Of a stretch of DNA of 64,000 nt, positions 16,371-43,485 are shown in pieces. Within the stretch, counting starts at the first letter, position 1; every line of letters begins with the position of its first letter. The stretch is from contig NZ_CP110680.1 of the NCBI RefSeq assembly GCF_028583725.1, positions 2,232,001 through 2,296,000 on the forward strand, given 5' to 3'. The position numbers and the translations under genes are program-made. A model generated the notes under the pieces. The model saw nothing but the letters and a program-made list of their open reading frames with translations, ran no database searches and was not told where the DNA came from. The stretch comes from Cellulomonas fimi. Lineage in GTDB: Bacteria; Actinomycetota; Actinomycetes; Actinomycetales; Cellulomonadaceae.

Positions 16371-18152
16371 TCAGCGGTAGGCCGCCGCCTGCAGCTCGAA
16401 CAGCTCGGCGTACAGGCCGCCTCGCTCCATGAGCTCGGTGTGACTCCCCTGCTCGGCCACCCGGCCGTCGGCAACCACCAGGATGACGTCGGCCATCCGT
16501 ACGGTCGAGAACCGGTGCGACACCAGGACGGTGATCGCGCCGGACGTCGCCGCCACCCGACGGGCGTTGTGCGCGTACTGCTCGAACAGGTCGTGCTCGG
16601 CCTGCGCGTCAAGAGCCGACGTCGGCTCGTCGAGCACGAGCAGGAGCGGCGACTCTCGCATCATCGCCCGCCCGAGAGCGAGCTTCTGCCACTGACCACC
16701 CGACAGCTGTGCACCGTCTCCGTGCTGGATCCCGAGCAGCGTGTCGAGCCCGCGCTCCAGGCGATCCAGCACCACGGACGCCCGCGCCCGGTCGAGCGCG
16801 GCCAGGACCGCGTCGTCCGACGAGACGTCGGGCAGGTTGCCCACGCCCACGGACTCGCGCGCGACGAGCTCGAACCGGCAGAAGTCCTGGAAGCCGGCTG
16901 ACACATGCGCACGCCAGCTCGCCACGTCCAGCGTCGTGAGGTCGACGCCGTCGACGAGCACCGTCCCGCTCGTCGGGTCGTAGAACCGGCAGAGGAGCTT
17001 CACGAGGCTCGACTTCCCGGCGCCGTTCTCGCCGACCACCGCGACGGTCGTGCCCGCGCGGAGCTCGAGATCGACCCCCTCCAGCACGAACCGGTCGGTG
17101 CCGGGGTAGGCGAATCCGACGTCGACGAAGCTGATGCCGGTGCGGAGCCGATCCGGCGCCGGCGTCGTCCCTGCCTCCGGAGCGCGCACGACCGTCCCGA
17201 TCCACCGGAGATCGGCGAGCGTGCGCCCTGTGCGCTGCAGCTGCTGGTGGATCGTCACCGCAGACGCCACCTGCGCGTTGACCTGCGCAGCCAGGGTGAT
17301 GACCAGGATGACGTCGCCGACGGTCCTCTCCCCCGAGACCGCGGCCCGCACGACGAGCAGCGTCGCCGCGACGTACGCGACGGCGAAGACGAGCTGCCCT
17401 ACGACCCGGAGGCCGCTCGCTCGGAGCTCGCCCCGGACCAGCTGCTTCGTCGCCGCGGACCACGCCATCGCGTGGCGTGCGCGCAGCTCGTCCCCGAGCC
17501 CGACGACACGCAGCTCCTTGGCAGGTCCTGGGTCGGTCGCGATCGAGAACAGGTGTCGAGCCCGCCGACCGTCCGTCGCCGCGAGGTCGCGCGCCTTGCC
17601 CGCACCTTCCTCCGCCAGCCGGCCCAGGATCAACGGCGGCACGGCCGCGACGGGGAGCGCGAGGAGCCACGGACTCAGGCCGGCCAAGAGGAACGCCGTC
17701 ACCGCGATGGCGAGCGTCAGCCCGAGCGCCGAGAGCAGCGCTTGCATCGACTCCCAACCCGACCGGTGCAGCTGGGTCCGGAGCACCTGGAGCTTGTCGG
17801 CGTAGTCCTGCCGCTCGTGGTGCGCGATGCCGGGCGACGCGTTCGCGAGCTCCACGAGCTCACGTTCCAGCGTCATGACGGCGAGGTCGCCGAGCTCGAA
17901 GTAGTACACGTGCGCGAAGTGCCCGGCGGTCAGGGACGCGATCAGCATGAGCGCCGCGACCGTAGCCGCCACCGTGGCACCCGCGACGTCCCCCGCGACC
18001 GCGGCGTCGGTGAGCGCACCGAGCGCCGGCGCCGCGAGCGGCATCGACACCGACTGCAGGAGCATCAGGGCGAGGGCGACCAGCAGCCGCTTCCGGTCGA
18101 CGCGGTACGCGAGCCGGAGGAGCTGGTACGCACCTGCGATGGTCTGCCTCAC
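16371..18152 (-). CDS. ABC exporter, fused membrane and ATPase domains (second half)
   Basis: A 593-residue half-transporter of the ABC exporter class. Residues 1-320 form the membrane domain with about six hydrophobic segments; residues 350-590 form the ATPase with Walker A GENGAGKSS, signature LSGGQ, Walker B LLLVLDEPTSALD and the H-loop LVSHRFS. The GTG start overlaps the stop of the preceding ABC gene by GTGA, so the two probably form a heterodimer that exports the product of the surrounding biosynthetic cluster. It is the last gene of the leftward operon; the convergent gap to the VOC gene is about 96 bp. Confidence 0.93.
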   Translation of the reverse strand: MRQTIAGAYQLLRLAYRVDRKRLLVALALMLLQSVSMPLAAPALGALTDAAVAGDVAGATVAATVAALMLIASLTAGHFAHVYYFELGDLAVMTLERELVELANASPGIAHHERQDYADKLQVLRTQLHRSGWESMQALLSALGLTLAIAVTAFLLAGLSPWLLALPVAAVPPLILGRLAEEGAGKARDLAATDGRRARHLFSIATDPGPAKELRVVGLGDELRARHAMAWSAATKQLVRGELRASGLRVVGQLVFAVAYVAATLLVVRAAVSGERTVGDVILVITLAAQVNAQVASAVTIHQQLQRTGRTLADLRWIGTVVRAPEAGTTPAPDRLRTGISFVDVGFAYPGTDRFVLEGVDLELRAGTTVAVVGENGAGKSSLVKLLCRFYDPTSGTVLVDGVDLTTLDVASWRAHVSAGFQDFCRFELVARESVGVGNLPDVSSDDAVLAALDRARASVVLDRLERGLDTLLGIQHGDGAQLSGGQWQKLALGRAMMRESPLLLVLDEPTSALDAQAEHDLFEQYAHNARRVAATSGAITVLVSHRFSTVRMADVILVVADGRVAEQGSHTELMERGGLYAELFELQAAAYR

Positions 18153-20038
18153 GCCGGGCCTCCTGTGGACGAGGTGGTCGGTCCGCCTGCGGTGGCGTCC
18201 ACATCGACGAAACGGTCTGCCTGCAGCCGGAACATCCGGGCGTACTCCCCGCCGGCGGCCACGAGCTCGTCGTGCGTCCCGCGCTCGACGACCCGCCCCG
18301 CGTCCAGCACGACGATGTGGTCGGCCCGGCGGACGCTCGAGAAGCGGTGCGAGACGAGGATCGACGTGACGCCGCGCGTGAGCTCGACGAACTGGTCGAA
18401 GAACGCCACCTCCGCCCGGACGTCGAGCGCGGACGTGGGCTCGTCGAGCACGAGGACCGTCGCCCCCGCCTGGAGGGCGTAGAGCGAGCGAGCGATCGCG
18501 ACACGCTGCCACTGCCCGCCCGACAGGTCGGCACCACCCGGGTACGCGCGCGAGAGCGGCGAGTCCAGACCCAGCGGCAGCTGCTCCAGGACGTCGAGGA
18601 TCCCGGCGCGCCGTGCGGCCTCGCGGACCGCGGTGCCGTCGCGCGGCGCGTGCACGGCACCCAGCGCGATGTTGTCGGCCGCGGACAGCTCGAACCGCAC
18701 GAAGTCCTGGAAGATCACCGAGACCTGCCGCCGCCATGCGGCGACGTCGAACGTGCCGATGTCCGTGCCGTCCGCGGTGATGCGTCCCTCGTCGGGCTCG
18801 TGCAGCCGGGTCAGCAGCTTGACGAGAGTCGTCTTGCCCGCGCCGTTCACACCGACGACCGCGGTGCAGAGACCGGCCGGGATGTCGAGGTCGAGACCGT
18901 CGAGGACCGGGACCGAACCGGGGTAGGCGAAGTGCACGTCCGCGAACCGGAGCGCGACGGACGGCACGTGGGCAGGCACGGGTGCTCCCGGCCCGGCCTG
19001 CTCGGTGGTCGCGCCGACGCGCTCCTCGAACTCCTCGAGCGCCGTCATCGCCTGCATGCCGTACTGCGTCGCTACGTCCGCCTCGGGATAGAAGACGCCG
19101 AGCATGAGGGCGGCCACCACGGACTGCACGCCCAGGGCGAGCGACGTGAGGTCGAGGTCGCCGGACGCCGAGGCGCGCCCCAGGTGCACCAGGACCCCGG
19201 CCGCGATGACGAGGCCGACCGAGGTGAACACCAGGAACGGCTTGAGGAAGATCAGCCGACGGCGCGCCGTGACCGGCGCGAGCATCCGTCGTGTCGCGTC
19301 TTCGTACCGGTCGGCGAACCACTCCGCGAGCCCGAAGACGCGTAGCTCCTTGGCGGCCGCGCTTCCCATCGCCACCTCACGCAGGTACTCCGAGAGACGA
19401 CGGAAGCCGACGACCTCCGACCACGCAGTCGAGTACTTCCGCAGACCGCCGCGCTGGCCGTAGCGGAACACCAGGGTCGCCGCGACGACCGCGAGGCCCG
19501 TCCACCACGAGGACACCACCGTGACGACGACCGCGTAGCCGGTGAGGGCGGTGTACCGGGCGATCAGCGCGAGCAGGCCGGCGCACGCGTCGCCCGGCGT
19601 GAGGTCGTCCGAGTCGATCTCACGCGTCGCCTCGCTCAGCGCCTCGAGCGTCGCGTGGTCCTCCATCGGACCGATCCCCGGAGAGCGGAACGCACCCTCC
19701 ATGATCCGGTCGCGCAGCCGCTCGTCGACCCGCCGCTTCAGGACCACGCCCAGCGCCGCCTGCACGGGAGTCAGCACCTGGAGGCTGCAGAACGCGAGCG
19801 CCGCGAGCGCGAAGCCCACCACGAGCTCGTCCCACGCCGCCGAGTCGACGCCGTCCGCCACAGCCGTGGGGACGCGCCCGACCAGCACGCTCGTGGCGAC
19901 CACGAATGCGACGGGGAGCAGCCCGAGCACGAGGTTGAGCACCGTGAGCCCGGCGAGGAGCGGCAGCCCGGCACCGGGCAGCAGCCGCGCGGCCGCGATG
20001 CGCGGCGCCACCGCGGCGGTTCGCCAGCGGCGTATCAC
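18149..20038 (-). CDS. ABC exporter, fused membrane and ATPase domains (first half)
   Basis: A 629-residue half-transporter, partner of the next gene. Membrane domain about 1-340 with six hydrophobic segments, ATPase about 370-610 with Walker A GVNGAGKTT, signature LSGGQ, Walker B TVLVLDEPTSALD and H-loop LVSHRFS. Both halves keep the Walker B glutamate, so both sites may hydrolyse ATP. The GTG at 20038 was chosen because it overlaps the MoeZ-like stop (GTGA), like every neighbouring junction. Likely product exporter. Confidence 0.93.
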   Translation of the reverse strand: MIRRWRTAAVAPRIAAARLLPGAGLPLLAGLTVLNLVLGLLPVAFVVATSVLVGRVPTAVADGVDSAAWDELVVGFALAALAFCSLQVLTPVQAALGVVLKRRVDERLRDRIMEGAFRSPGIGPMEDHATLEALSEATREIDSDDLTPGDACAGLLALIARYTALTGYAVVVTVVSSWWTGLAVVAATLVFRYGQRGGLRKYSTAWSEVVGFRRLSEYLREVAMGSAAAKELRVFGLAEWFADRYEDATRRMLAPVTARRRLIFLKPFLVFTSVGLVIAAGVLVHLGRASASGDLDLTSLALGVQSVVAALMLGVFYPEADVATQYGMQAMTALEEFEERVGATTEQAGPGAPVPAHVPSVALRFADVHFAYPGSVPVLDGLDLDIPAGLCTAVVGVNGAGKTTLVKLLTRLHEPDEGRITADGTDIGTFDVAAWRRQVSVIFQDFVRFELSAADNIALGAVHAPRDGTAVREAARRAGILDVLEQLPLGLDSPLSRAYPGGADLSGGQWQRVAIARSLYALQAGATVLVLDEPTSALDVRAEVAFFDQFVELTRGVTSILVSHRFSSVRRADHIVVLDAGRVVERGTHDELVAAGGEYARMFRLQADRFVDVDATAGGPTTSSTGGPA

Positions 20039-21234
20039 CGCACGTCCCCCGGTGCCGCCCCGACGACGTCCCGGGCGCGGTCGAAGGCGTCGAACCCGCC
20101 GGTGAGATGGCGGACGTCCGGATGGCCGTCGCGGCGCAGGAGGTCGAGGCACGTGCTCGAGCGTGCGCCGGACTTGCAGTAGAGCACGACGCGCTCGTGC
20201 TCGAGCAGCCGTGCCCGGGTCTCGGCCGCCGCGAACCGTCCGCTCGGGACGAGCACGCTGCCGGGAACCGAGCCCAGGGCGTGCTCGAACGGCTCGCGGA
20301 CGTCGACGACGTGGACGGTGCGGCCCACCTCGCCGCGCGCCACCAGGTCACGGAGCTCCGCGACGCTGATCGCGGCGCCGCCGGGGACGGCCGACGGCAG
20401 GGCACACCGCTCCTCGTACGGCCACTCCTGCAAGGTCCGCACGCGCAGCGTGTCCTCCTGGACCGGGATCGCGAAGCTGCGCCACCGCATCGAGAGGGCG
20501 TCGAGCGTCAGCAGACGGCCGACGAGCGACTCACCGATGCCGAGCACGAGCTTGACGGCCTCGGTCGCCATCGTGGCGCCGACGACCGCGCAGAGCGCCC
20601 CGAGCACTCCGCCCTCGGCACACGACGGGACCAGCCCCGGCGGCGGTGGCTCGCTGTAGAGGTCGCGGTACTGCGGACCGTACCGGGCCCAGAAGATGCT
20701 GACCTGACCCTCGAAGCGGAAGACCGAACCCCAGACGTACGGCAGGTCGAGGATGACGCACGCGTCGTTCACGAGGTACCGGGTCGCGAAGTTGTCCGTC
20801 CCGTCGATCACCAGGTCGTACCCGCGGAACAGGTCGAGCGCGTTCTCGGGCGACACCCTGGTCCGGTGGGTCAGCACCCGGACGTGCGGGTTGATCCGGC
20901 GCAGGCGCTCGGCGGTGACGTCGACCTTGGCGCGGCCGACGTCGTCCGTGCCGAAGAGCACCTGCCGGTGGAGGTTGGAGTGGTCGACCACGTCGTCGTC
21001 GACCACCGCGATGGTCCCGACACCGGCGGCGGCGAGGTACGTGAGGACCGGGGCGCCCAGCCCTCCCGCGCCGACCACGAACACCTTCGCGCCTGCCAGC
21101 CGCCGTTGACCGTCGAGACCGACCTCGGGCAGGAGAAGGTGCCGGCTGTAGCGCGCCACCTCGTCCGCCGTGAGGTCGTGCCGTGGCTCCACGAGCGGCC
21201 CGGGGAGGCTGCCGCCCACGCCTGCCGCGCTCAT
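20035..21234 (-). CDS. MoeZ-type sulfur-carrier activating enzyme with rhodanese domain
   Basis: A 399-residue E1-like adenylyltransferase plus sulfurtransferase. The ThiF/MoeB domain (about 20-260) has the ATP-binding GAGGLGAPV (56-64), VVDDDVVDHSNLHRQ and the MoeZ signature PPPPGLVPSCAEGGVLG. The rhodanese domain (about 290-395) has the active-site loop YCKSGARSS with Cys353. Such proteins adenylate the C-terminal Gly-Gly of ThiS/MoaD carriers and load sulfur as thiocarboxylate. Its partner is the carrier encoded directly upstream (ATGA overlap). Clustered with a ThiG-like gene but without other thiamin or molybdopterin genes, it is probably dedicated to sulfur insertion into a metabolite. 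Confidence 0.93.
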   Translation of the reverse strand: MSAAGVGGSLPGPLVEPRHDLTADEVARYSRHLLLPEVGLDGQRRLAGAKVFVVGAGGLGAPVLTYLAAAGVGTIAVVDDDVVDHSNLHRQVLFGTDDVGRAKVDVTAERLRRINPHVRVLTHRTRVSPENALDLFRGYDLVIDGTDNFATRYLVNDACVILDLPYVWGSVFRFEGQVSIFWARYGPQYRDLYSEPPPPGLVPSCAEGGVLGALCAVVGATMATEAVKLVLGIGESLVGRLLTLDALSMRWRSFAIPVQEDTLRVRTLQEWPYEERCALPSAVPGGAAISVAELRDLVARGEVGRTVHVVDVREPFEHALGSVPGSVLVPSGRFAAAETRARLLEHERVVLYCKSGARSSTCLDLLRRDGHPDVRHLTGGFDAFDRARDVVGAAPGDVR

Positions 21235-21503
21235 CCTCCGGCCACCGCGGGGATCACGGTGATCTCGGCGCCGTCGGTCACCGGCGTGTCCAGCCCTCCG
21301 GTGACGCGCACGTCGACGGCGTCGACGTAGACGTTGACGAACCGGGACAGCTCCCCGTGCCCCTGGATCACGTCCACGACGGCGGGCTGCGCCTGTGCCG
21401 CGTCGGCGAGCACCTCCCGGAGCGTTCCTCCCGTTGCGTGCAGCGTGCGGGCGCCTCCCGCGCGCGCTGCGAGCACCGCGGGCAGGACGATGGTTGCGGT
21501 CAC
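21231..21503 (-). CDS. ThiS/MoaD-type sulfur carrier protein
   Basis: A 90-residue beta-grasp protein ending in the Gly-Gly needed for thiocarboxylation (AVAGG). Other MoaD-like features are the FVNVYVDAVDVR strand and the DGAEITVIP turn before the C-terminus. It would receive sulfur from the MoeZ-like enzyme downstream and deliver it to the ThiG-like synthase. The GTG start overlaps the HAD stop and its own stop overlaps the MoeZ-like start, both by 4 nt. Confidence 0.92.
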   Translation of the reverse strand: MTATIVLPAVLAARAGGARTLHATGGTLREVLADAAQAQPAVVDVIQGHGELSRFVNVYVDAVDVRVTGGLDTPVTDGAEITVIPAVAGG

Positions 21504-22177
21504 GTCGTTCCTCTCGTCGTCGTCTCCCGCCGGGTGGCGGTCGCCGCCACGCCCAGCGCGGCAGCGATGTCATGGAGGTGCGGGTAGGTCTCGTCGGCGC
21601 CCGCGTCGCGCAACGCTCGCGCCGCGTCGGGGCCCCCGCGCGCGAGCCCGAGGCACCGCGCGCCGGCCGCGACGGCTGACCGGACACCGTGCGTCGAGTC
21701 CTCGACCACGACGCAGCTGTCGGCCGGGACGGCGAGCCGCGCGGCGGCGAGCAGGTAGGGCGCGGGATCGGGCTTTCCTGCCGCCTCGCCCCAGGTGACG
21801 GTCGCGGCGACCGAGTCGCGCAGCCCGAGCTCGTCGACGACGCGTGTCAGCCGTCGGCTCGAGGCGCCCGTCACGAGTGCGACGGGGACGCCTGCACCCG
21901 CGAGGCCCCGGACGAGATCCGCGCCACCGGGCACGGCGACGACCGGGAGCGACGGCTCCGACTCGGCGACGCGCGCGGCGACGACCCGCGGGTCGACGTC
22001 CGGCAGCAGGTGCCGGCTGGTGTGCTCCACGCTGCAGCCGATGACGTGCCGACGTGCCTCGACGCCGGGTCGCGACGACCCGAAGTGCTCGCACACGTCG
22101 GCCCACAGCGCGACCACGGCCTCGTCGGTGTCGACGAGGACTCCGTCGACGTCGACGAGTGCGGCCGCGTACCTCAT
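21500..22177 (-). CDS. HAD-family phosphatase/phosphoglucomutase-like
   Basis: A 225-residue HAD hydrolase, subfamily IA. Motif I is DVDGVLVDT at the N-terminus, motif II VTGASS, motif III the K in GKPDP, and motif IV VVVEDSTHG. A helical cap lies between motifs I and II. In this setting, between a ThiG-like synthase and its sulfur carrier, a sugar-phosphate phosphatase role is plausible (inference). Overlaps of 4 nt on both sides show tight coupling. Confidence 0.9.
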   Translation of the reverse strand: MRYAAALVDVDGVLVDTDEAVVALWADVCEHFGSSRPGVEARRHVIGCSVEHTSRHLLPDVDPRVVAARVAESEPSLPVVAVPGGADLVRGLAGAGVPVALVTGASSRRLTRVVDELGLRDSVAATVTWGEAAGKPDPAPYLLAAARLAVPADSCVVVEDSTHGVRSAVAAGARCLGLARGGPDAARALRDAGADETYPHLHDIAAALGVAATATRRETTTRGTT

Positions 22178-22929
22178 GCGGGCGTGTCCAGCTGTCCCGC
22201 GGCGAAGCCGCCGGCGAGGGCGGCGTGCCGGACCGCGCGGGCCATGCGTCCGGGGTCCGGCGCGCGCGCGACCATCGTGTTGACGAGGACCGCGTCCGCG
22301 CCGATCTCGAAGGCACGTGAGACGTGTGCGGTGCTGCCGAGCCCGCCCTCGACGACGGTCGGGACGCCGACGGCGTCGATGCAGGAGCGAAGCGCCGCTT
22401 CGTCGACGAGACCGCGGTAGCTCGCGACCGGGCTGGCCATGAGGCGGAGCGCGGAGCAGCCCATGCCTTCCAGGACCCGCGCTGTCGCGGGGTCGGGCAG
22501 GATGAACGGCAGGAGGCTGAAGCCGTCGTTGAGCAGCTCCTTCGCGGCGACGACCGTGGCGGCCGCGTCCGGCATGTTGGAGTCGTCGCGCACGTCGAGC
22601 TTGATGACGTCGAGGCCGAGCGAGTCGCGCAGCCGGCGGGACGTCTCGACCGCGTCGTTCGCGGAGTGCGCGAACGACGTCGTGCCGATCCACGCGAACC
22701 GCGCGAGATCGACCTCCCGGTCGAGGTCCGAGAGCAGGAGGCTGCTCCGCGTCCGCTCGAGGTCGTACGTCGTGATGAAGACGTCGGCACCGCTGGCGTC
22801 GAGCACGTCACGCACGACCGCGGGGTCGGTGTACTGCTCCACGCCCAGGAGCAGTCGCGAGCGGAACGTCAGCTCTCCGAGCCGCAGCCACGGCTCAGGT
22901 CCGAACGGGTCCAGGTCGGCGTCAGGCAC
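22174..22929 (-). CDS. ThiG-like sulfur-inserting synthase
   Basis: A 251-residue TIM-barrel relative of thiazole synthase. The catalytic-lysine strand VIKLDV is kept (K110), as are GFSLLPFILPDP (137-148) and VVEGGLGST...GADAVLVNT (192-218). The loop that in ThiG reads about GAPIGSGLG is replaced here by ASPVASYRGL (165-174), so the substrate may not be deoxyxylulose phosphate. ThiG homologues such as BexX make 2-thiosugars in secondary metabolism using ThiS/MoaD and MoeZ. With those partners encoded alongside, a thiosugar-forming role is the best inference. The GTG start overlaps the upstream stop by 8 nt. Confidence 0.85.
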   Translation of the reverse strand: MPDADLDPFGPEPWLRLGELTFRSRLLLGVEQYTDPAVVRDVLDASGADVFITTYDLERTRSSLLLSDLDREVDLARFAWIGTTSFAHSANDAVETSRRLRDSLGLDVIKLDVRDDSNMPDAAATVVAAKELLNDGFSLLPFILPDPATARVLEGMGCSALRLMASPVASYRGLVDEAALRSCIDAVGVPTVVEGGLGSTAHVSRAFEIGADAVLVNTMVARAPDPGRMARAVRHAALAGGFAAGQLDTPA

Positions 22930-23884
22930 GGGCGCTCCTTCTCATCGGGTTCGACAACATGGCGTGCAGGAGCTCCGTCACCTCGGGTCGGTCGGCCACG
23001 CCGTCGAGGTGGAAGACGCACACCCCGTCGGACGTCTCGGGCGCCGCGGCGTCGAGCATCCGCCGCAGCTCGTCCACGTCGAGAGCCGCGTCGTCGTCCG
23101 CCGAGGCGGCCTGGACCCACGGCACGACCGGGCGCCCCGTGGAGCGCCGGATCTCGTCGTGCAGCTTCCGCACGTGGTGGGCCGGGCGGCCGATCATGGC
23201 GCTGTACGACATGGGCATGAGCACGTCGACGCAGGAGGCGAGCGCTTCGAGGTCCTGCCCGCAGGCCCAGCGGCGCGCGCCCGCGTAGTCGTCGGCGAGC
23301 CACGGCACGACCTTCACGCCCACGGTCGTGTCCGTGGACGTCGCCCGCACGACGTCCACGGCGTCGCGGACGCGTGCCGTCACCGCCTCGACGGCGTTCC
23401 GGCCCAGCTGCTCGCGGTCGACCGGCGTCGGGAGGCCGTCGACGCACCGAGCGCACCAGCAGCCGTGCTCGATGTCGGCGGCGGACGCGTCGGCGGGAAC
23501 GCGCTCCCACATCACGAAGGTGCGTGCGAAGTCGAGGCACACCAGGTCGGGCTGCAGCACCTCGAGCGCACCGGCCAGCGCGCGTCGGCGTGCGTCCCAG
23601 AACTCGTCGGAGCGGGGACATGCCATGTGCAGCCAGCGGTCCACGGCGCGTCGGCCCGCACTGGTCACGGCGTAGGTGTCCGGCATCTGCGCCAGGAGGA
23701 CGGGATCGAAGAAGAGGGGGAAGTTGAGCGCCACTCCGAGGTCGCCGTCCCGCAGCCACGAGAGCAGCTCCTCGTTCTCCTGTGCGCGGTCGCCGACGAC
23801 GACCGCGTCCAGGCCGCAGCGGCGCACGACCTCCTCGACGTGATGCGGGGCGACATCCGGGTCGAGGCAGTAGAGCGCTCTCAC
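22922..23884 (-). CDS. Putative TIM-barrel glycosidase-like protein
   Basis: A 320-residue protein that I can place only loosely. Features such as VVRRCGLDAVVVG, HMACPRSDEFWDARRRAL, PDLVCLDFARTFVMWE and the cysteine cluster HGCWCARC, followed by PVVPWVQA and LDGV near the end, resemble uncharacterised glycoside-hydrolase-like TIM barrels. The CxxC-type cluster may bind a metal or stabilise a loop. No signal peptide. The GTG at 23884 overlaps the glycosyltransferase stop (GTGA). Its role in the cluster is unknown; processing of a glycosylated intermediate is possible. Confidence 0.7.
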   Translation of the reverse strand: MRALYCLDPDVAPHHVEEVVRRCGLDAVVVGDRAQENEELLSWLRDGDLGVALNFPLFFDPVLLAQMPDTYAVTSAGRRAVDRWLHMACPRSDEFWDARRRALAGALEVLQPDLVCLDFARTFVMWERVPADASAADIEHGCWCARCVDGLPTPVDREQLGRNAVEAVTARVRDAVDVVRATSTDTTVGVKVVPWLADDYAGARRWACGQDLEALASCVDVLMPMSYSAMIGRPAHHVRKLHDEIRRSTGRPVVPWVQAASADDDAALDVDELRRMLDAAAPETSDGVCVFHLDGVADRPEVTELLHAMLSNPMRRSARA

Positions 23885-25167: not shown

Positions 25168-25236
25168 GGGGTCTCCATCGACAAGGTGCCTGGTCAGCGG
25201 CGCACCTGGCGAGAGCCCGGGGCGAGCGCGGCTGCG

Positions 25237-25265
25237 ACGGTACACGGGGCGCTCAAACCGGTCAA
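25237..25265 (-). promoter_or_regulatory. Promoter of the leftward sulfur/export operon
   Basis: On the minus strand, -35 TTGACC (25260-25265) and -10 TACCGT (25237-25242) are 17 bp apart, close to the housekeeping sigma consensus. It is about 70 bp before the glycosyltransferase start. Confidence 0.6.
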
Positions 25266-25349
25266 AGGTGTCGATCGCGGCATGTCGCACCTCCGGAGCA
25301 GGGACAGCTCGGTGCATCCCGGCGCTGGTGCCGGTCCCCGTAGCCGGTC

Positions 25350-25378
25350 TGGCGAACCGGTCCGGATGTCGCTATCGT
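25350..25378 (+). promoter_or_regulatory. Candidate promoter of the nucleotide-sugar dehydrogenase operon
   Basis: TGGCGA (25350-25355), 17-bp spacer, TATCGT (25373-25378). The segment shares GGAT..GTCGCTA and the CTGGCG block with the promoter-like region at 29288-29317. Confidence 0.5.
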
Positions 25379-26883: not shown

Positions 26884-26884
26884 C

Positions 26885-29235: not shown

Positions 29236-29287
29236 GCTGCCACAGCGGCGGACGTCCGCCGGGCCTCCCGGGACGGCGCGAGACGCC

Positions 29288-36500: not shown

Positions 36501-37411
36501 CGCGCGGGCCCGCCCGCCGGGCACTCGACTGGGACGCCTTGGAGGCACGCGAGCACGTGCGGCCGACGTCGACGCGGTGGTGGGGGGCGCACACGGTCGC
36601 CGCGTTCGGCGGCACCGTGCTCGAGGTCGAGGTCACGGACGGCGCCGGGCCGCTCGCCGCGCTCGTCCTCGCCGGGGGCGCGCTCGCGCCCGGCGGCTTC
36701 GTGCTCGGCGGCATCGGGCACGGTGCGCTGCACGCGGTGGACGACCCGCGTCCGCTGAGCCTGCTCCGGCAGGTCGACGCGGTCCCCGTGCTCGAGCGTC
36801 ATCTCGGGATGCGGTGCCTGCGCCTCGTGACCGGACCGGTCGACCCAGCGCCTCCCGATGCTGCCGTCGGCGCGCTGCGCTCGTGCACCGTGATGGAGCT
36901 CGACAACGGGACCGGTGACACGTGGGACACGGTCGCCGGCAACGTGCGCACCGCGGTCCGTGCGAGCCGCCGTCGCGGCCTGGCGGTCGTCGACCTCACG
37001 GTGTCGGACCTTCCGGACGCGATCGCGCTCGTGCACGCGACCCAGGAGCGGGTCGGTGCGGCCTACCGCACGCCCCCCGTGCTCCTCGAACGGCTTCTCG
37101 AGGACGCTCCGCACGCGTGCGCCGTCGGCATCCGGCACGAGGGCCGGCTCGTGTGCGCCTCGTTCTTCCTCCGGCACGGCCCGCACGCGACGTATCTCGT
37201 CAACGGGTACACCGCGGTGCCCGGCAAGCCGTCGCCCACGTACCTCACCGTCTGGGAGGCGGCGACCCGCCTCGCCGCCTCCGGGTGCCGCTGGCTCGAC
37301 CTCGGTCACTCGCCGTCCGCGTCGCTCGCGCGGCACAAGGCGCAGTGGTCACCACGCCTGGAGCACCACCTGGCCATCACGCCGTCCGCAACCCGATCGG
37401 AGCACGAATGA
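36497..37411 (+). CDS. FemAB/GNAT-like acyl or aminoacyl transferase
   Basis: A 304-residue protein of the acetyltransferase_6/FemAB-like group. The conserved segment NVRTAVRASRRRGLAVVDL (about 153-171) matches the R-x-x-RR-R-x-G core, followed by VGAAYRTPPVLLERLL, an acceptor-fold strand RLVCASFFLRHGPHATYLVNGY, and WEAATRLAASGCRWLDLGHSP. FemAB-type enzymes add amino acids from aminoacyl-tRNA; others use acyl-CoA. GTG start and both junctions overlap by 4 nt. Likely adds an aminoacyl or acyl group that the M20 enzyme may later act on (inference). Confidence 0.78.
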   Translation: MTRGPARRALDWDALEAREHVRPTSTRWWGAHTVAAFGGTVLEVEVTDGAGPLAALVLAGGALAPGGFVLGGIGHGALHAVDDPRPLSLLRQVDAVPVLERHLGMRCLRLVTGPVDPAPPDAAVGALRSCTVMELDNGTGDTWDTVAGNVRTAVRASRRRGLAVVDLTVSDLPDAIALVHATQERVGAAYRTPPVLLERLLEDAPHACAVGIRHEGRLVCASFFLRHGPHATYLVNGYTAVPGKPSPTYLTVWEAATRLAASGCRWLDLGHSPSASLARHKAQWSPRLEHHLAITPSATRSEHE

Positions 37412-38418
37412 ACCGCCTGGAGTCGTGGGCCACTCCCGACACCTCAGCCGTGACCGCGCTCGCTCGTCGCGCCGGTCTCGGAGAGAACGCGACGGTCACC
37501 CGCCTGGAGGGCGGACTCGTCACGACGAACTTCCGCGTCTCCGACGGCACGAGAGACGTCGTCGTGCGCGTGTACCCGCCGTCACGTGACCCCGACGAGG
37601 TGACCTTCGAGCTGTCGGTCCTCCAGCACCTGCGTGCCGCGGACGTCCCGGTCCCGGGCCCGCTGCCGTCCGACGCACCGGTGCGCGCGACGTGGGACGG
37701 ACGTCAGGTCGCCGTGCTCGAGTACCTCCCCGGTCGCACGGTCCGTCCCGACGAGCTCTCGACCTCGGTCGCCGCGCAGGCGGGCGCGCTGTACGCGCAG
37801 ATGCAGGACGCTCTGCGGGACGCGCGTCCGGTCGGCACCAAGGGCGCCACGGACGGCGCGGCGCTCGACGAGCTCGTGGCGCAGACGCACGCCGCGCTGG
37901 TGCCGCAGGACGCCGACGCCGCGGAGAGCCTGCGCCACGCCTGGGACCACGCTCGACGAGGTCTCGCGCAGCGCGCACCGTCGGGAACGGCAGTGGTGCA
38001 CGGCGACTTCTGGTGCGCGAACGTGCTGGCCGAGGACACCCCTTCCGGGCCGGTGCTCACGGGCGTGATCGACTTCGACGACTGCTACGTCGGCGACCTC
38101 GGGCTCGACCTCGCGCTCGCCGCGACGGAGTTCGCGTACGACGAGCAGGACCACCTGCACGGTGACCGGCTCGACGCCTTCCTCGCCGGTTACAGCCGGA
38201 CGTCACGGCGCCCGGTCGCGACCGACACGGACACGTTCCTGCTGTGGATGACCGCGGTGTTCTGCAAGTTCGCCTGCTACACGCTGCCGCTAGCCGAGCC
38301 GCCCATCGACGGACCCGTGCAGAACCCCTACCTGACGAGGCTGCGTGCGGTGGGTGCACCGCGGGTGCGGGAAGCCGTCGAGAACGCGGTCACGGGCGCC
38401 GAGGCGGTGCACGCGTGA
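37408..38418 (+). CDS. APH-type phosphotransferase (choline/homoserine-kinase-like)
   Basis: A 336-residue aminoglycoside-phosphotransferase-fold kinase. It has a glycine loop LEGGLVTTNFRV (34-45), VVVRVYP as the ATP-lysine equivalent region, the catalytic loop VVHGDFWCANVL with HxDxxxxN, and IDFDDCYVGDLGLDLA. The substrate may be an amino-sugar or cyclitol intermediate. It is less similar to the other two kinases of the cluster than they are to each other. ATG overlaps the FemAB stop (ATGA). Confidence 0.9.
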   Translation: MNRLESWATPDTSAVTALARRAGLGENATVTRLEGGLVTTNFRVSDGTRDVVVRVYPPSRDPDEVTFELSVLQHLRAADVPVPGPLPSDAPVRATWDGRQVAVLEYLPGRTVRPDELSTSVAAQAGALYAQMQDALRDARPVGTKGATDGAALDELVAQTHAALVPQDADAAESLRHAWDHARRGLAQRAPSGTAVVHGDFWCANVLAEDTPSGPVLTGVIDFDDCYVGDLGLDLALAATEFAYDEQDHLHGDRLDAFLAGYSRTSRRPVATDTDTFLLWMTAVFCKFACYTLPLAEPPIDGPVQNPYLTRLRAVGAPRVREAVENAVTGAEAVHA

Positions 38419-39422
38419 TGGCCGGCACGCACCGCGGGCGGCTCCTGCTGACAGGCGGGTGCGGCTTCATCGGCACCGCTCAGGCGCAGACGGCACTCGC
38501 GTCGGGCTGGCGCGTGGTCCTCCTCGACGCGCGGACCTCCGGGACGATCGCTGACGACGCCGGCCTTCTCGACCACGAGGGGGTCGAGGTCGTCGAGGGT
38601 GACGTCACGGACCCCAGCGTGTACGACCGGGTGGGGTCGGTCGACGCCGTCGTCCACGCCGCGGGTTTCCTCGGGGTCCAGGCGGTCACGGACGACCCGT
38701 TGCGCACGCTCGACGTCAACATCCTCGGCAGCCGCGAGGTGGCGCGCTTCGCCTCTCGGCGACCGGGTACCCATCTCGTCCTCCTCAGCACGAGCGAGGT
38801 CTACGGGACGCACGCCGTGGCCGTGGACGAGCGGGCGGCTGCCGTCGTGCCCGCCGGGGCCGGCCGTTGGTCCTACGCGGCGAGCAAGATCGCGGCCGAG
38901 CAGTACGCGCATGCGTATGCCCGGGCCGCCGCGACGCCCGTGACGGTCGTCCGTCCTTTCAACGTCTACGGCCCGGGCCGGCGCGGCTCGTACGCTGTCG
39001 GCGAGTTCGTCCGTCGCGCGCTCGCCGGGGAGGACCTGATCGTCCACGGGTCCGGTGAGCACGTCCGCTCGTGGTGCCACGTGCGCGACTTCTGCGCGGG
39101 AGTCGCGGCCGTGCTCGACACCCCCGCGGCCCGGGGCCGCACGTTCAACATCGGGAACCCGGCCGAGCCGCTGTCCGTGCGCGCGCTCGCGGAGCTCGTC
39201 GTGCGCAGGTCGGGCTCGCGCTCGCGCATCGTCACCGTGCCCGGCAGCGACGACGTCGTCGAACGCTCGCCGGACATCAGCGCCGCCCGCGAGGTGCTCG
39301 GCTTCGAGCCGCAGATCGGGCTCGAGGTCGGTCTCGACGACGTGATCGCCGCCGCCGGCGGCGACGACCGGTCAGCCTCGCGCGGCGTGCAGGAGACGGC
39401 GGAGCCACCGCGCCTCGGGTGA
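38418..39422 (+). CDS. NAD-dependent sugar epimerase/dehydratase
   Basis: A 334-residue extended SDR. The NAD site TGGCGFIGT lies at 12-20, the catalytic residues in LLSTSEVYG and YAASKIAAE, and PFNVYGPGRRG and HVRDFCAGVAAVLD are typical of nucleotide-sugar epimerases. The ATG at 38418 overlaps the kinase stop (TGATG); the in-frame GTG at 38415 is an alternative. Last gene of the rightward operon; its last 51 nt overlap the convergent kinase gene. Confidence 0.93.
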   Translation: MAGTHRGRLLLTGGCGFIGTAQAQTALASGWRVVLLDARTSGTIADDAGLLDHEGVEVVEGDVTDPSVYDRVGSVDAVVHAAGFLGVQAVTDDPLRTLDVNILGSREVARFASRRPGTHLVLLSTSEVYGTHAVAVDERAAAVVPAGAGRWSYAASKIAAEQYAHAYARAAATPVTVVRPFNVYGPGRRGSYAVGEFVRRALAGEDLIVHGSGEHVRSWCHVRDFCAGVAAVLDTPAARGRTFNIGNPAEPLSVRALAELVVRRSGSRSRIVTVPGSDDVVERSPDISAAREVLGFEPQIGLEVGLDDVIAAAGGDDRSASRGVQETAEPPRLG

Positions 39423-40376
39423 GGCGTAGTAGTCGTTCAGAGCCGTGCGCTCACAGGCGCCGAGCGCACGGCTCCACGACAGCGCCTTCGAGACGCACGC
39501 GACGCGCAGCGCGAGCACCTGGGCCCGACGCAGCGCATCGGCGTCGACGTCGCGTGCCCACGCTCCGCAGTAGGCATCGACCACACGCTCCACCGCCTCG
39601 GGGGACGCGCCGAGCTCGTCGAGCTCGCGCAGCGGGAACAGCAGGCTCCCGAACGGGTGCCCGACGTGGGCGTCGGCCCAGTCGATGACGACGACGCGGC
39701 CGTCCGCTCGCCGGCACACGTTCCCGCCCGACAGGTCGTCGTGCTGGAGCGTGTCCGGGATGCCGAACGAGGCGAGCTCCTCGCACCATCGGCTGTACCG
39801 CGGGAGCAGCGCCGCCACGTCCCGCAGCTCGGCGCGCGACAGGCCACGGGGGTCGTCGACGAGGAGCCGCGGGTCGCGCAGGAGCTCGTCGAGCCGCTCC
39901 GGCAGCGCCCGTGGTGGCAGGTGCGGCACACCCATCGCGACGAGCTCGTCCGTCCGCTGCTCGACAGCGCGCTGCACCGCTGCATACCTCTCCAGCGCGC
40001 CACCCCAGGCTGCCGCCTCCTCTCCGCGGGCCGGACGCAACGGGGACCCGGCGTGCTGCATGACCCACCAGCCGCGTTCCGGGCGGCTCGCGACGACGCG
40101 GGGCACGGCGGGATCGCCGACGCCGACGCCGCTCAGCCACGAGGTCAGGCGCCCTTCGAAGCCGGCCGGGTCCTCGGCCTTGAACCACAGGAGGTCGGGT
40201 CCCGTGCCGACCTTCCACACCGCGCCCCACGGTCGTGCGCGTTCGGGTGCGATCCGGACGTCGCCGCCGTGGGCGCGCACCACGGGCAGGTCGGCGAGCC
40301 ACGCACGTGCGTGGGCGACCCACGGACCCGAGACCCACGCGTCCGCCGCCCCGTCGAGCGTCTCCGCTGTCGCCAT
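39372..40376 (-). CDS. APH-type phosphotransferase, paralogue A
   Basis: A 334-residue kinase with the APH catalytic loop LQHDDLSGGNVC and VIDWADAHVGHPFGSLLFPLREL. These segments closely resemble those of the kinase at 42523-43485 (VQHDDLHPGNVV, IIDWADASVAHPWASLLYPLDL), so the two are paralogues. It follows the amidinotransferase gene by 19 nt. Possible roles are biosynthetic phosphorylation, as in streptomycin-type pathways, or self-resistance. Confidence 0.88.
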   Translation of the reverse strand: MATAETLDGAADAWVSGPWVAHARAWLADLPVVRAHGGDVRIAPERARPWGAVWKVGTGPDLLWFKAEDPAGFEGRLTSWLSGVGVGDPAVPRVVASRPERGWWVMQHAGSPLRPARGEEAAAWGGALERYAAVQRAVEQRTDELVAMGVPHLPPRALPERLDELLRDPRLLVDDPRGLSRAELRDVAALLPRYSRWCEELASFGIPDTLQHDDLSGGNVCRRADGRVVVIDWADAHVGHPFGSLLFPLRELDELGASPEAVERVVDAYCGAWARDVDADALRRAQVLALRVACVSKALSWSRALGACERTALNDYYASPEARWLRRLLHAARG

Positions 40377-40395: not shown

Positions 40396-41436
40396 TCAGG
40401 CGTACGTCTCGAGCGTGCCGCGACGGCGCACGTCGAGCGTCACGCAGTGGAAGCCGCCGCCGAAGGTGCGCGAGTGGGTCAGACGCGCCGGCAGCACGTC
40501 GATCCCGTGCGACTCCAGCTGCTTGACGAGCGACGTCTGGCGCTCGTCGGCGACGACCAGGTCAGGGCTGACGCTCAGCAGGTTCATCCCGACCCAGACC
40601 GAGCCGTTGGGCCGGCGGTCCGGCGGGTGGGTGTCGACGGGCTCCTCGGCCCAGATCAGGTCCCACCCGCGGAAGATCTCGGGAAGGTTGTCCTCCGTGA
40701 CGCGTGCCGAGTTCAGGAGCACGAGCCCCGGGCGCAGCGGGACGAAGGTCGTGTCGATGTGAGTGGAGGCGTACACGTCGCGCACGGGGTGGACCTTGTA
40801 CTGGGAGCCCAGCGTCGACTGGAGCCACCGGAGGCCGAGCTCCGTCCCGCTGTCGGAGACGAGGTACAGCAGGTCCGTGCCGATCCGCAGGACGTTGGCG
40901 GCGTCGAACGTCGGCTCGTCGTCGAGCACCCGCCGACCGACGGGTGCCGTCGGGTCGAACAGGTCGTCCGCGAGCCGCGGCTTCGGTGCGCTGATCCACC
41001 GGCTGCCGCTGCGGAGGTACTCGATGAACAGGTCCTTGTACGCGAGGTACTCGAAGAAGCGGGAGCGCAGGGACATCGGCGTCTCGATCACCGTGTCGCC
41101 CACCGTGAGGAAGCCGTCGCGCGGGCACACGTCGGGGAACGAGTCGGTCGACCAGTGCGGCGAGGACGCGACGACGGCGTGGTCGCGCGGCTGGGGTCGC
41201 CGCACCGTGATCCCGAGGGCCCGCAGGCTGTCGGCGAGAGCGTCGAGCTCGACCTGGGCTTCCTCGACGGCCCTCCGGTCGTACGGGCCCGACGGGATGT
41301 CCTGCGGTCCCTCGACGTCCGGGAACTCGATCGACATCATCGACCTGTCCCCCACGGGCACGCGGGCGCCGACGGTCGTCCCGACGATGACCTCCTCGAG
41401 GGGGTCCCACTCGTTGTGGACGCTGACCAGGCTCAT
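40396..41436 (-). CDS. StrB1-like amidinotransferase
   Basis: A 346-residue amidinotransferase that moves the amidino group of L-arginine to an amine, forming a guanidino group and ornithine. Its sequence resembles StrB1, inosamine-phosphate amidinotransferase of streptomycin synthesis: the start (MSLVSVHNEWDPLEEVIVGT), CPRDGFLTVGDTVIETPM, YLVSDSGTELG and the end (THSRTFGGGFHCVTLDVRR) look alike from memory. The catalytic triad fits FDAANV (D178), HIDTTF (H226) and FHC (C331). The acceptor may be an inosamine, an amino sugar or another amine. ATGA overlap with the aminotransferase stop. Confidence 0.93.
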   Translation of the reverse strand: MSLVSVHNEWDPLEEVIVGTTVGARVPVGDRSMMSIEFPDVEGPQDIPSGPYDRRAVEEAQVELDALADSLRALGITVRRPQPRDHAVVASSPHWSTDSFPDVCPRDGFLTVGDTVIETPMSLRSRFFEYLAYKDLFIEYLRSGSRWISAPKPRLADDLFDPTAPVGRRVLDDEPTFDAANVLRIGTDLLYLVSDSGTELGLRWLQSTLGSQYKVHPVRDVYASTHIDTTFVPLRPGLVLLNSARVTEDNLPEIFRGWDLIWAEEPVDTHPPDRRPNGSVWVGMNLLSVSPDLVVADERQTSLVKQLESHGIDVLPARLTHSRTFGGGFHCVTLDVRRRGTLETYA

Positions 41437-42311
41437 CGTGCTCCTTCAGGTTCGGTCGGATGGTGGACGCCGACGTGCAGCGGCTGCCACGGCTCGTGCG
41501 CGAGCGCCTCGCGCACACGTGCGAGGAGGGCGAGGTCCACCGCGATCGCGGTGTCGTCGACCTGGCCGACCGGCGCCACGCCCCGGGAGTTGACGACGAC
41601 CACCGACGAGGCGCCGTCGATCGACGCGAGCGGGAGGCGCTCGCGCAGGGAACCCAGGCCGACGGCGGCGAGACGCCGCTCGAGCAGCTGCATCGTCACG
41701 CCCTCGAGCAGCTCCCCGGCCGGCCATACCAGAGCGTCGTCCCGCACGAGCGCGACGTTGGCCGTCGCCGTCTCCAGGACGTCGCCCGCGGGGCTCACGA
41801 GGAGCGCCGTGTCGTATCCCGCCTGTCGAGCCTGTCGCTCGTGCCAGCGCTTCACGAACGTGCCCGTGTGCTTGAGGTCCGCGAACGGACGCTGGTACCG
41901 CACCGTGCGCAGGCGCCGGGGCACGTCACCGGCGGGCGCCGGAGGCTCCACCACGACCAGGAGCGCAGGCTCGAGAGGCTCGGGCGACGCCATCACGTAC
42001 ACCTTGACGGTCGCGTCCTCGGTGTCGGCGAGCGCCTCGACGACACGGCGCAGGACGAGCGCGGGATCCAGCTCGTGCGACAGGATCCTGCGGGACCCTG
42101 AGACCAGCCGTGCGAGGTGCAGATCGAGCCCTTGGACGGAGCTCCCCCGGACCTGCATCGCCGTGGAGTGACCCAGGTTCGTCGACATCAGGTCGACCAG
42201 GCGCGCCGCGTCGACGGCCGCGCCGTCGAGCAGGAGCCGCCGCTGCGTCGCGTGCGACAGCAGGCCCCGGGCACCGCCGTCCACGCCATCACCTGCCTGC
42301 TCGCCGGGCAT
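41433..42311 (-). CDS. Class IV PLP-dependent aminotransferase/lyase
   Basis: A 292-residue member of the BCAT/D-amino-acid aminotransferase/ADC-lyase fold (fold type IV). PLP lysine candidate is in RPFADLKHTGTFVKRW; GDVLETATANVALV matches the E-x-x-x-N-x-F signature region and VTMQLLERRL the following helix. Start taken at the ATG at 42311; a TTG at about 42341 is possible. The reaction may be amino-donor supply or lyase chemistry. First gene of the leftward three-gene operon; a TACGAT hexamer (42353-42358, minus strand) is a likely -10 element. Confidence 0.85.
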   Translation of the reverse strand: MPGEQAGDGVDGGARGLLSHATQRRLLLDGAAVDAARLVDLMSTNLGHSTAMQVRGSSVQGLDLHLARLVSGSRRILSHELDPALVLRRVVEALADTEDATVKVYVMASPEPLEPALLVVVEPPAPAGDVPRRLRTVRYQRPFADLKHTGTFVKRWHERQARQAGYDTALLVSPAGDVLETATANVALVRDDALVWPAGELLEGVTMQLLERRLAAVGLGSLRERLPLASIDGASSVVVVNSRGVAPVGQVDDTAIAVDLALLARVREALAHEPWQPLHVGVHHPTEPEGAR

Positions 42312-42352
42312 GACAGCCGCGCTGCCTGCGATCGTCTCCAAAGGGCTCGCGG

Positions 42353-42358
42353 ATCGTA
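42353..42358 (-). promoter_or_regulatory. -10-like element of the amidinotransferase operon
   Basis: TACGAT on the minus strand, 41 nt before the aminotransferase start at 42311. No convincing -35 element accompanies it. Confidence 0.35.
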
Positions 42359-42417
42359 GCGCAACGCGGACACCTCGGGACGAGCCCGCCCTCACCGGAC
42401 AGAACGGACCCGGTCCG

Positions 42418-42447
42418 TTGACGGTCGCGGCCGTGCCTCACTAGCGT
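42418..42447 (+). promoter_or_regulatory. Promoter of the kinase gene at 42523
   Basis: TTGACG (42418-42423), 18-bp spacer, TAGCGT (42442-42447), 75 bp before the TTG start. The best-matching -35 on the plus strand of the cluster. Confidence 0.55.
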
Positions 42448-42522
42448 CCTCGCGTCCCGGGCGTCGGGGGCGCCGGCCCGGACGCACAGCCGCCGGACGC
42501 CGCACGAACGGGAGCCCGCTGC

Positions 42523-43485
42523 TTGCCGACCACCGATCTCACGGACCTGACCGCCCCGCCGACGGCGGTCGACGCCTGGATCCGGGGCGTCTGCGACGAG
42601 CTGTCGTGGCCCGGCCCCGCCCTCGAGCTCGTGCACGACCGACCGTGGGCGCGCGTCTGGCGGGTCCGCACGGCGTCCGGCACCGGGTGGCTCAAGCTCG
42701 ACCTGACGCGCCGTGGTGTCGAGGCGCCGCTGCTCGACGCGCTCGTGCCGCTCGCCCCCGGTCACGTCCCGCAGCTGCTCGCCGCGGAGAGGACGCTCTC
42801 GGCGTTGTTGGTGCGGGACGCCGGTGCCGTCCTCCCGCTCGGCCACCAGGACTGGTGCTCGGTGCTCGAGCAGTACGGGCGGCTGCAGCGCCTCGTCGAG
42901 CCGCACGTGGACGCGCTCGTCGCACGCGGCGTCCCCGACCTCCGTCCCGCGGCCCTGGAGCGCGAGTTCCGCGGCGTCGTCGACCGCGCCGAGGCGGACC
43001 GGGCGGTGGACGGCGACACGGCGACCCGGCTGCGTGCACGCCAGGGTCAGGTCGCGCGCTGGGCCGCCGTCCTCGCGAGCCACCACGCCGCGCCCTCGGT
43101 GCAGCACGACGACCTGCACCCGGGCAACGTCGTCCGCGGCGCGGACGGGCGCCGTCGCATCATCGACTGGGCGGACGCGTCGGTCGCGCACCCCTGGGCC
43201 AGCCTGCTCTACCCGCTGGATCTCGCGGACCGGGGCGCCGTCGACCTCCGTTCGGCCGGGGACGCCGACCGCCGGGACCTCATCCGGGCCTATCTCGCGG
43301 GCCGCGAGGAGCACCTCGACCAGGAGGCGCTCGACGTCGTGCACCTCGCGTGCCGGACCGCGGCCGTCGGTCGTGCGCTGGTGTGGGAGTCGTGCCGCCG
43401 GCTACCCGGGGCCGCGGCGATGAAGGAGTACTACCGCACCGGGGTCGACCGTTGGCTCGACAGGCTGCTGGACGTGCGGACCTGA
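42523..43485 (+). CDS. APH-type phosphotransferase, paralogue B
   Basis: A 320-residue kinase of the APH fold with catalytic VQHDDLHPGNVV (HDD...N) and IIDWADASVAHPWASLLYP. Sequence and layout mark it as a paralogue of the kinase at 39372-40376. It starts at a TTG with GGAG upstream. It is transcribed alone at the edge of the cluster from a housekeeping-type promoter, which would suit a resistance kinase more than a core biosynthetic enzyme (inference). Confidence 0.86.
   Translation: MPTTDLTDLTAPPTAVDAWIRGVCDELSWPGPALELVHDRPWARVWRVRTASGTGWLKLDLTRRGVEAPLLDALVPLAPGHVPQLLAAERTLSALLVRDAGAVLPLGHQDWCSVLEQYGRLQRLVEPHVDALVARGVPDLRPAALEREFRGVVDRAEADRAVDGDTATRLRARQGQVARWAAVLASHHAAPSVQHDDLHPGNVVRGADGRRRIIDWADASVAHPWASLLYPLDLADRGAVDLRSAGDADRRDLIRAYLAGREEHLDQEALDVVHLACRTAAVGRALVWESCRRLPGAAAMKEYYRTGVDRWLDRLLDVRT

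Follow-up and report, generated by a model that had tools for sequence, protein, structure and literature searches.

We analyzed a 64,000-nucleotide stretch of Cellulomonas fimi DNA (contig NZ_CP110680.1; the whole stretch is referred to as the window) from a complete genome of 4.49 Mb with a GC content of 74.7%. At positions 16371-43485 the window contains a block of approximately 27 kb and 23 genes, arranged as tightly coupled operons around three divergent intergenic regions (25168-25542, 375 bp; 29236-29415, 180 bp; 42312-42522, 211 bp), as an initial annotation of this DNA had described. Twenty-two of the genes were called by a codon model trained on the window, and the remaining one (26840-27589) was taken in from the list of open reading frames, backed by a family match well above cut-off.

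The 22 junctions between neighboring genes comprise 17 same-strand junctions, two convergent overlaps and the three divergent regions. The same-strand junctions form four runs and consist of 14 four-base overlaps, one overlap each of 8 and 44 bases, and one 19-base gap. The first operon is read on the minus strand from 25167 to 16371 and has eight genes overlapping by 4 or 8 bases. A plus-strand run of eight genes lies at 29416-39422 (seven 4-base overlaps), and two smaller runs hold two genes (25543-27589) and three genes (42311-39372). The genes at 27505-29235 and 42523-43485 stand alone. The convergent overlaps measure 85 and 51 bases, with the gene ends at both as called, not proven.

Matches to Pfam and NCBIfam models identified ThiG, ThiS and ThiF-rhodanese (MoeZ) proteins, two DegT aminotransferases and one class IV aminotransferase, a YqcI/YcgG heme oxygenase, a UDP-sugar dehydrogenase, an epimerase/dehydratase, a glycosyltransferase, three APH-type kinases, a FemAB-like acyltransferase, an M20 hydrolase and an ABC pair. 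An amidinotransferase was recognized by its match in the PDB, its Pfam match (ADI) being below cut-off. Every enzyme class listed in the initial annotation was thus recovered, together with features absent from that list: a HAD phosphatase, a glycoside-hydrolase-like TIM barrel, an NTP_transf_5-like protein, a xylose-isomerase-like TIM barrel, a 576-residue protein and a region resembling nucleoside-diphosphate kinase (NDK) on the first DegT protein. The block had also been described as free of polyketide synthase (PKS) and nonribosomal peptide synthetase (NRPS) genes, and we found no such Pfam domain above cut-off among the 23 proteins; a KR match to the epimerase fell below it (19.6 against 22.6 bits). 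No integrase was seen in the Pfam scans of the 23 proteins, no Rfam element or tRNA lies inside the block (the sole match is a tRNA-Pro at 11258), and a search of 10 of the 23 proteins for defense families returned only generic E1 matches to the MoeZ-like protein.

Edges and flanks of the block

Comparison with related genomes places the block between conserved flanks. In two genomes of the same genus (G066 and G008), the nearest left-flank genes are 88-92% identical and the right-flank genes 93-94% identical, and the block is absent between them. The flanks are instead separated by other DNA (2.4 kb in G066, about 1.3 kb in G008), in which the only matches to the block are ABC-ATPase cross-matches to the flanking ABC genes. 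Neither genome contains a match to the thiosugar synthase BexX at 1e-50 or to the amidinotransferase StrB1 at 1e-40 anywhere. On the right side, DNA homology restarts at 43659-43671 in all five relatives whose right flank was compared (15 relatives keep the neighboring gene intact at an identity of at least 64%), while on the left it stops at 15810 in G066 and at 14740 in G008. A 49-column imperfect direct repeat marks the left edge, with one copy at 16290-16337 and the other at 43719-43767, the start of the right-flank ABC-ATPase gene (alignment score of 71, where 200 mononucleotide shuffles gave at most 40). From the position of the repeat, the left edge falls within about 80 bp of the start at 16371 given by the initial annotation, and the glyoxalase gene at 15876-16274 lies outside.

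The GC content at third codon positions (GC3) is 0.920 in 22 block genes and 0.951 in 32 flanking genes of at least 100 residues, which excludes the carrier and one short flank gene (Mann-Whitney P=8e-7, a guide only, as the block genes are not independent). The expected catalytic residues were found wherever they were checked, and the block occupies the same interval as an insertion bounded by conserved flanks; it is thus confirmed as a real feature and not a chance arrangement. The block looks like one insertion and probably represents one horizontally acquired biosynthetic cluster.

Two conserved left-flank genes are separated by other genes in G066 (L060:7533-14893), so that the site may be a repeated insertion point. 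The left flank also encodes a 1073-residue protein without a Pfam match (11411-14632), which is 88-91% identical in G008 and G066.

Sulfur-transfer genes and the recurrent cassette

The minus-strand operon opens with a family 2/GT7C-like glycosyltransferase (23881-25167; PF00535, PF02709) and a glycoside-hydrolase-like TIM barrel (22922-23884), followed by a ThiG-like protein (22174-22929), a HAD phosphatase (21500-22177; PF13419, motif DVDG), an apparently dedicated ThiS/SAMP1-like sulfur carrier (21231-21503; PF02597), a MoeZ-like sulfur-carrier activator (20035-21234; PF00899, PF00581) and two ABC exporter half-transporters (18149-20038 and 16371-18152; both PF00005), whose homologs at the Cellulomonas sp. 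Root485 locus are 72% and 73% identical, respectively. The TIM barrel has no Pfam match, and its AlphaFold model, of middling confidence (mean pLDDT 74.6), resembles glycoside-hydrolase-type barrels, with matches spread over many of them.

We compared the ThiG-like protein with known structures. The best PDB match was 4n6e, a "putative thiosugar synthase" which we take to be BexX (279 bits, with 59.8% identity to the aligned residues over 229 columns), against 118 bits for ThiG. Lys110, presumably the catalytic residue of the BexX type, is present and aligns to a Lys of 4n6e. In a tree of 32 proteins, the window protein groups with BexX and apart from 12 ThiG-like rows (support 100/100), the ThiG label of which rests on similarity. 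The tree drew on 14 of the 28 loci from the BexX search, four of seven ThiG-like loci, two of four plasmid matches and 10 of 120 listed proteins. The protein is therefore predicted to be a BexX-type 2-thiosugar synthase and not merely ThiG-like.

The other sulfur-transfer proteins have the features expected of a carrier and its activator. The carrier ends in GG, as do all four aligned Cellulomonas homologs (window included), and the MoeZ-like protein combines ThiF and rhodanese domains with the rhodanese loop CKSGARS and its active Cys. A second MoeZ-like protein, 54% identical, is encoded elsewhere in the genome. According to reviews, the 2-thiosugar of BE-7585A is formed by BexX from glucose 6-phosphate, with MoeZ and the carriers supplied by primary metabolism (PMC4784017, PMC5321127, PMC6225789), the BE-7585A cluster lacks a sulfur carrier of its own, and siderophore clusters have pathway-specific ThiS paralogs (both PMC6225789). 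Since such paralogs are already known, the new point is the pairing of a carrier with BexX.

BexX-like proteins were found at 28 loci. Those studied here are the six with at least 53% identity; the rest are at 38% or below, except for one short match. The closest named relatives of the window protein are from Cellulomonas (~80% identity), and the BexX type is present in 3 of 81 genomes of the genus, including that of the window. In the window and five of the six loci (Cellulomonas sp. Root485, C. algicola, C. cellasea, Streptomyces sp. SID9727 and Plantactinospora) the BexX gene adjoins the HAD gene, with the same glycosyltransferase within five genes. At the sixth locus, in Spongiactinospora, the HAD and glycosyltransferase genes were not found in 20.7 kb. 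The six loci that have both genes, window included, form one starred clade of the tree with two context-less proteins (100/99). Two plasmid loci grouping with BexX carry an annotated trehalose-6-phosphate synthase instead, and one of them also type II PKS genes. The latter, a stretch of a Streptomyces plasmid (L078:1-18521) with BexX-type, trehalose-6-phosphate-synthase-like and type II PKS genes, resembles a BE-7585A-type cluster.

The genes surrounding this cassette vary. Among the stretches compared, ThiS and MoeZ homologs lie beside BexX only in four Cellulomonas loci, including the window. An NTP_transf_5-like protein is encoded near the cassette in the window, Root485, C. cellasea and SID9727. 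No match to it turned up in the Plantactinospora stretch, and because the C. algicola contig begins inside the glycosyltransferase gene, its absence there is uninformative. A scan of 40 proteins from the cassette stretches identified the partner genes. Root485 and C. algicola have OMP-decarboxylase-like, thymidylate-kinase-like, SDR and GTP cyclohydrolase II genes in common, to which Root485 adds a dCTP-deaminase/PPDK fusion, and C. algicola a DegT aminotransferase and a GFO_IDH_MocA oxidoreductase. The partners are GlmS-like, formyltransferase, class III aminotransferase and NDK genes in C. cellasea; dihydroorotate-dehydrogenase, amidohydrolase (dihydroorotase-like), OMP-decarboxylase and M20 genes in SID9727; and AMP-binding, condensation-domain and methionyl-tRNA-synthetase-like genes in Plantactinospora.

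Some of these neighborhoods have further features. The set common to Root485 and C. algicola (L048:11626-15695 and L015:5427-12566), which also includes CYTH, appears as if assembled for a nucleotide-derived product. The dihydroorotate-dehydrogenase, OMP-decarboxylase and BtpA genes near the SID9727 cassette (L054:883-9734) constitute a pyrimidine-like set, and YdjC, radical SAM and methyltransferase genes also stand beside the Plantactinospora cassette (L018:3-9832).

Amino-sugar and guanidine genes

The amidinotransferase (40396-41436, minus strand) matches StrB1 over its full length (PDB 1bwd, 501 bits; next chain, 232 bits) and carries the catalytic Cys331. Among the best 120 of 3250 matches, its identity to the S. 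griseus protein is 63% and reaches 71% for others. These matches identify it as a probable StrB1-type enzyme. It is the one amidinotransferase in the genome at E 1e-40, and none of the 395 other genomes of the phylum has a StrB1 match at 1e-120. Weaker amidinotransferases occur in three genomes (G009, G069 and G035), with no other gene of the block in the surrounding stretches compared except for generic ABC ATPase matches. A StrB1 stretch on a Streptomyces plasmid (L077:17586-31812) has annotated DegT, nucleoside-diphosphate kinase, APH, nucleotidyltransferase and PqqD genes.

A GntA/AglA-family heme N-oxygenase is encoded at 26840-27589 on the plus strand (PF08892; NF041366, the GntA model, 240 bits against a cut-off of 145). 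Its Cys46 lines up with a Cys of AglA in a weak match. The characterized members of the YqcI/YcgG family are heme-dependent guanidine N-oxygenases, with Cys47 as the heme ligand in ChmN (PMC10849742).

Three plus-strand genes encode candidate nucleotide-sugar enzymes. The dehydrogenase (25543-26883; TIGR03026 above cut-off) has Cap5O and UDP-ManNAcA dehydrogenase as its best PDB matches. The NAD-dependent epimerase/dehydratase (38415-39422; PF01370) is near UDP-xylose synthases and matches PDB 8vr2, for which only an unrelated paper was found, and UDP-glucuronate decarboxylases. The first DegT aminotransferase (30975-33155; PF01041) is most similar to the ArnB-type structure 8sng and nearer to ArnB than to scyllo-inositol transaminase. 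Together these suggest the formation of a UDP-4-amino-pentose. The closest matches of the dehydrogenase are UDP-ManNAc-type enzymes, however, so the sugar might also be an acetamido-uronate, which the M20 hydrolase could deacetylate.

The first DegT protein has an unusual N-terminal region. Residues 81-230 match a C. cellasea protein with an NDK domain (PF00334; 35% over 150 residues), and residues 1-345 have only one other homolog at 1e-10 among 7996 candidates scored. No link of this region to the StrB1 locus of the Streptomyces plasmid emerged: the C. cellasea protein matches the plasmid with 27% identity over 154 residues, and the window protein has no such match at 1e-4. One further DegT protein is encoded elsewhere in the genome.

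The remaining genes of the plus-strand run encode the NTP_transf_5-like protein (29416-30978; PF14907 at 20.5 bits against a gathering score of 31.2; no PDB match at 0.001), the xylose-isomerase-like TIM barrel (33152-34075; PF01261), the M20 (ArgE/DapE-like) amidohydrolase (34072-35340; PF01546, motif-like stretches HLDV, GRGTSD and EEIGG), a divergent DegT aminotransferase (35337-36500; PF01041, SFGPQK motif with a candidate pyridoxal-phosphate Lys), a FemAB/GNAT-like acyltransferase (36497-37411; PF13480) and a homoserine-kinase-like APH-type kinase (37408-38418; PF01636, NCBIfam homoserine kinase below cut-off). The xylose-isomerase-like protein has no match at 1e-25 in the 395 other genomes of the phylum and none in the PDB at 0.01. 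Two APH-type kinases (both PF01636) lie at 39372-40376 on the minus strand and at 42523-43485 on the plus strand and are 36% identical paralogs. The former has counterparts within the order in two of 395 other genomes, with only generic ABC and kinase matches in the surrounding 13.8 and 14.0 kb. A class IV aminotransferase (41433-42311; PF01063) and a 576-residue protein (27505-29235; no Pfam or NCBIfam match, β-propeller-like by eye), both on the minus strand, complete the block. Further right in the window, three neighboring genes at 51963-57233 have no NCBIfam match, and the protein of the first (51963-54245) has no Pfam match either.

Proposed pathway, rival readings and known systems

We propose, with a probability of roughly 0.6, that the block is an undescribed cluster encoding one pathway to an exported product with 2-thiosugar, amino-sugar and (N-hydroxy)guanidino parts. 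The protein families, the catalytic residues where checked, the operon coupling, the insertion and the cassette recurrence are observed, and from these we infer every substrate, the step order, the linkages and the product. The MoeZ-like protein would activate and thiocarboxylate the cluster's own ThiS-like carrier, which the BexX-type synthase would use to place sulfur at C2 of a hexose 6-phosphate. Removal of the phosphate from the thiosugar would fall to the HAD enzyme, and the family 2 glycosyltransferase would couple the sugar to a partner. The UDP-sugar dehydrogenase, the UDP-xylose-synthase-like enzyme and the ArnB-like DegT protein would supply a UDP-4-amino-pentose or a related UDP-amino sugar. 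One or both of the paralogous kinases may phosphorylate an amino sugar or an aminocyclitol, and the StrB1-type enzyme would move an amidino group from arginine onto its amine, giving a guanidine that the GntA-family enzyme may N-hydroxylate. The M20 hydrolase could remove and the FemAB-like enzyme add acyl groups, and the ABC pair would export the product.

Support for the two halves belonging to one pathway comes from the NTP_transf_5-like gene at 29416, a cassette gene in three other loci, which leads the amino-sugar operon with a 4-bp overlap, and from the presence of both halves in one insertion. The initial annotation had named a cluster for a sulfur-containing aminated guanidino sugar or cyclitol, which is supported in part. 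The acquired cluster, with BexX-type sulfur transfer, nucleotide- and amino-sugar enzymes and a StrB1-type amidinotransferase, agrees with it; a single sugar or cyclitol bearing all three groups would go beyond this evidence. More tentatively, and at less than even odds, a portable thiosugar cassette with its own carrier pair may have been joined to a StrB1-type guanidine pathway to give the first class of thiosugar-bearing, possibly N-hydroxyguanidino, aminoglycoside-like antibiotics, and in other actinobacteria this cassette would modify different scaffolds, some of them with nucleotide-type genes.

Several observations weigh against the one-pathway proposal. A second complete copy of the block was not found, and an amidinotransferase match at E 1e-10 is missing from all six other BexX-bearing genomes tested (the five with the cassette and Spongiactinospora), a negative without its own control, although the same query matches the genome of the window and three other members of the genus (37-45% identity). 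The cassette, having different partners, is therefore modular and not part of a fixed cluster, a point that the initial annotation had not made; a cluster fixed across relatives was dropped as an explanation, as the gene set is not together in them. The StrB1 gene has a GC3 of 0.960, against 0.884-0.938 for the other block genes of at least 100 residues, and therefore possibly a separate history. To the left of the right flank, three of the five relatives that have it carry other genes, so that only two show both flanks. AglA matches the N-oxygenase at only 25.8 bits, and the dehydrogenase is nearer to UDP-ManNAc/GalNAc-type enzymes than to calicheamicin CalS8, the aminopentose being one of several readings. 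No inositol dehydrogenase family (GFO_IDH_MocA) was matched among the 23 proteins, the rest of the genome not being searched, and a streptomycin-type inosamine substrate is therefore doubtful.

The different partners in five genomes, the six genomes without an amidinotransferase match and the GC3 of the StrB1 gene would fit two independent pathways at one insertion site, namely a thiosugar glycosylation cassette (16371-25167 with 29416) and a guanidino amino-sugar pathway (the rest). We consider this unlikely, since cassette gene 29416 stands first in the amino-sugar operon, the insertion is single with similar GC3 apart from StrB1, and the other cassette loci likewise adjoin sugar-, nucleotide- or peptide-type genes, the pattern expected of a shared donor module. 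The initial annotation had counted against itself any synteny that would assign the operons to unrelated pathways separated in relatives; the variable partners provide this in part, with the overlap at 29416 and the one insertion speaking against full separation. Decoration of a cell-surface polysaccharide or glycolipid, with the nucleotide-sugar enzymes, glycosyltransferase and ABC pair serving the envelope rather than a diffusible small molecule, is improbable. The UDP-uronate dehydrogenase and PseC/ArnB-like aminotransferase do resemble envelope-sugar enzymes, and the ABC proteins best match MsbA models, below the family cut-off. However, the 23 proteins include only one recognizable glycosyltransferase and no polysaccharide polymerase or flippase family, the StrB1, GntA-type and APH families are typical of antibiotic pathways, and the BexX type is patchily distributed in the genus. 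If the ThiG-like gene and its neighbors belonged to thiamine synthesis or another primary sulfur pathway, this would account for the ThiG, ThiS and MoeZ families and for the lack of another ThiG match in the genome at E 1e-20. This rival was dropped as very improbable given the bit scores and the tree position with BexX, and the family tables for the 23 proteins contain no ThiO, ThiH, ThiC or ThiE.

Searches of open-licence PMC papers, which omit most subscription papers, found none joining a 2-thiosugar or thiosugar with an amidinotransferase or guanidine gene cluster, and no Cellulomonas aminoglycoside gene cluster with an amidinotransferase; nor does such a cluster feature in the listed titles and abstracts on thiosugars and sulfur carriers. 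This is in line with the initial annotation, which knew of no described cluster with this combination, and suggests that such a cluster is absent from print. Each enzyme class is already known; the combination and the self-contained cassette apparently are not, as far as we have seen. Thiosugars are, to our knowledge, rare in natural products. An operon that brings its own carrier and activator would amount to a ready-made kit for adding sulfur to sugars, and its combination with a StrB1-type amidinotransferase and a guanidine N-oxygenase would be new chemistry, provided that one product results. The recurrence beside different partners points to a family of undescribed thiosugar compounds, which could be found through the BexX-HAD-glycosyltransferase trio.

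In BE-7585A-type clusters, an OtsA-like thiosugar transferase presumably lies beside BexX; neither such a transferase nor a type II PKS is among the 23 block proteins. The block has in common with the BE-7585A pathway of Amycolatopsis orientalis the 2-thiosugar synthase family and Lys110, and its MoeZ-like and carrier genes recall the MoeZ-dependent carrier chemistry described there (PMC5321127). It differs in that BE-7585A is an angucycline whose cluster has no carrier (PMC6225789), whereas the block operon has ThiS and MoeZ and no PKS domain above cut-off. The block protein also belongs to a different starred clade from BexX, one associated with HAD and family 2 glycosyltransferase genes.

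Streptomycin clusters contain DegT aminotransferases, APH-type kinases, an inositol dehydrogenase, an inosose aminotransferase and a second amidinotransferase. The block resembles them in its StrB1-type amidinotransferase with the catalytic Cys, its DegT aminotransferases and its APH-type kinases. A streptomycin-type aminocyclitol cluster was dropped as an explanation, given the single amidinotransferase, the lack of a GFO_IDH_MocA match in the block and the ArnB-like first DegT. The N-oxygenase belongs to the same family as those of guanitoxin (GntA), argolaphos (AglA) and chalkophomycin (ChmN), but its neighbors are StrB1 and sugar enzymes. The calicheamicin (CalS8) and ArnA/ArnB systems are aminopentose pathways with a dehydrogenase, a UDP-glucuronate-decarboxylase-like enzyme and an ArnB-like aminotransferase, the same types that occur together in the block. 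In contrast to these systems, the block combines a dehydrogenase nearer the UDP-ManNAc type with a DegT aminotransferase that has an NDK-like N-terminal region.

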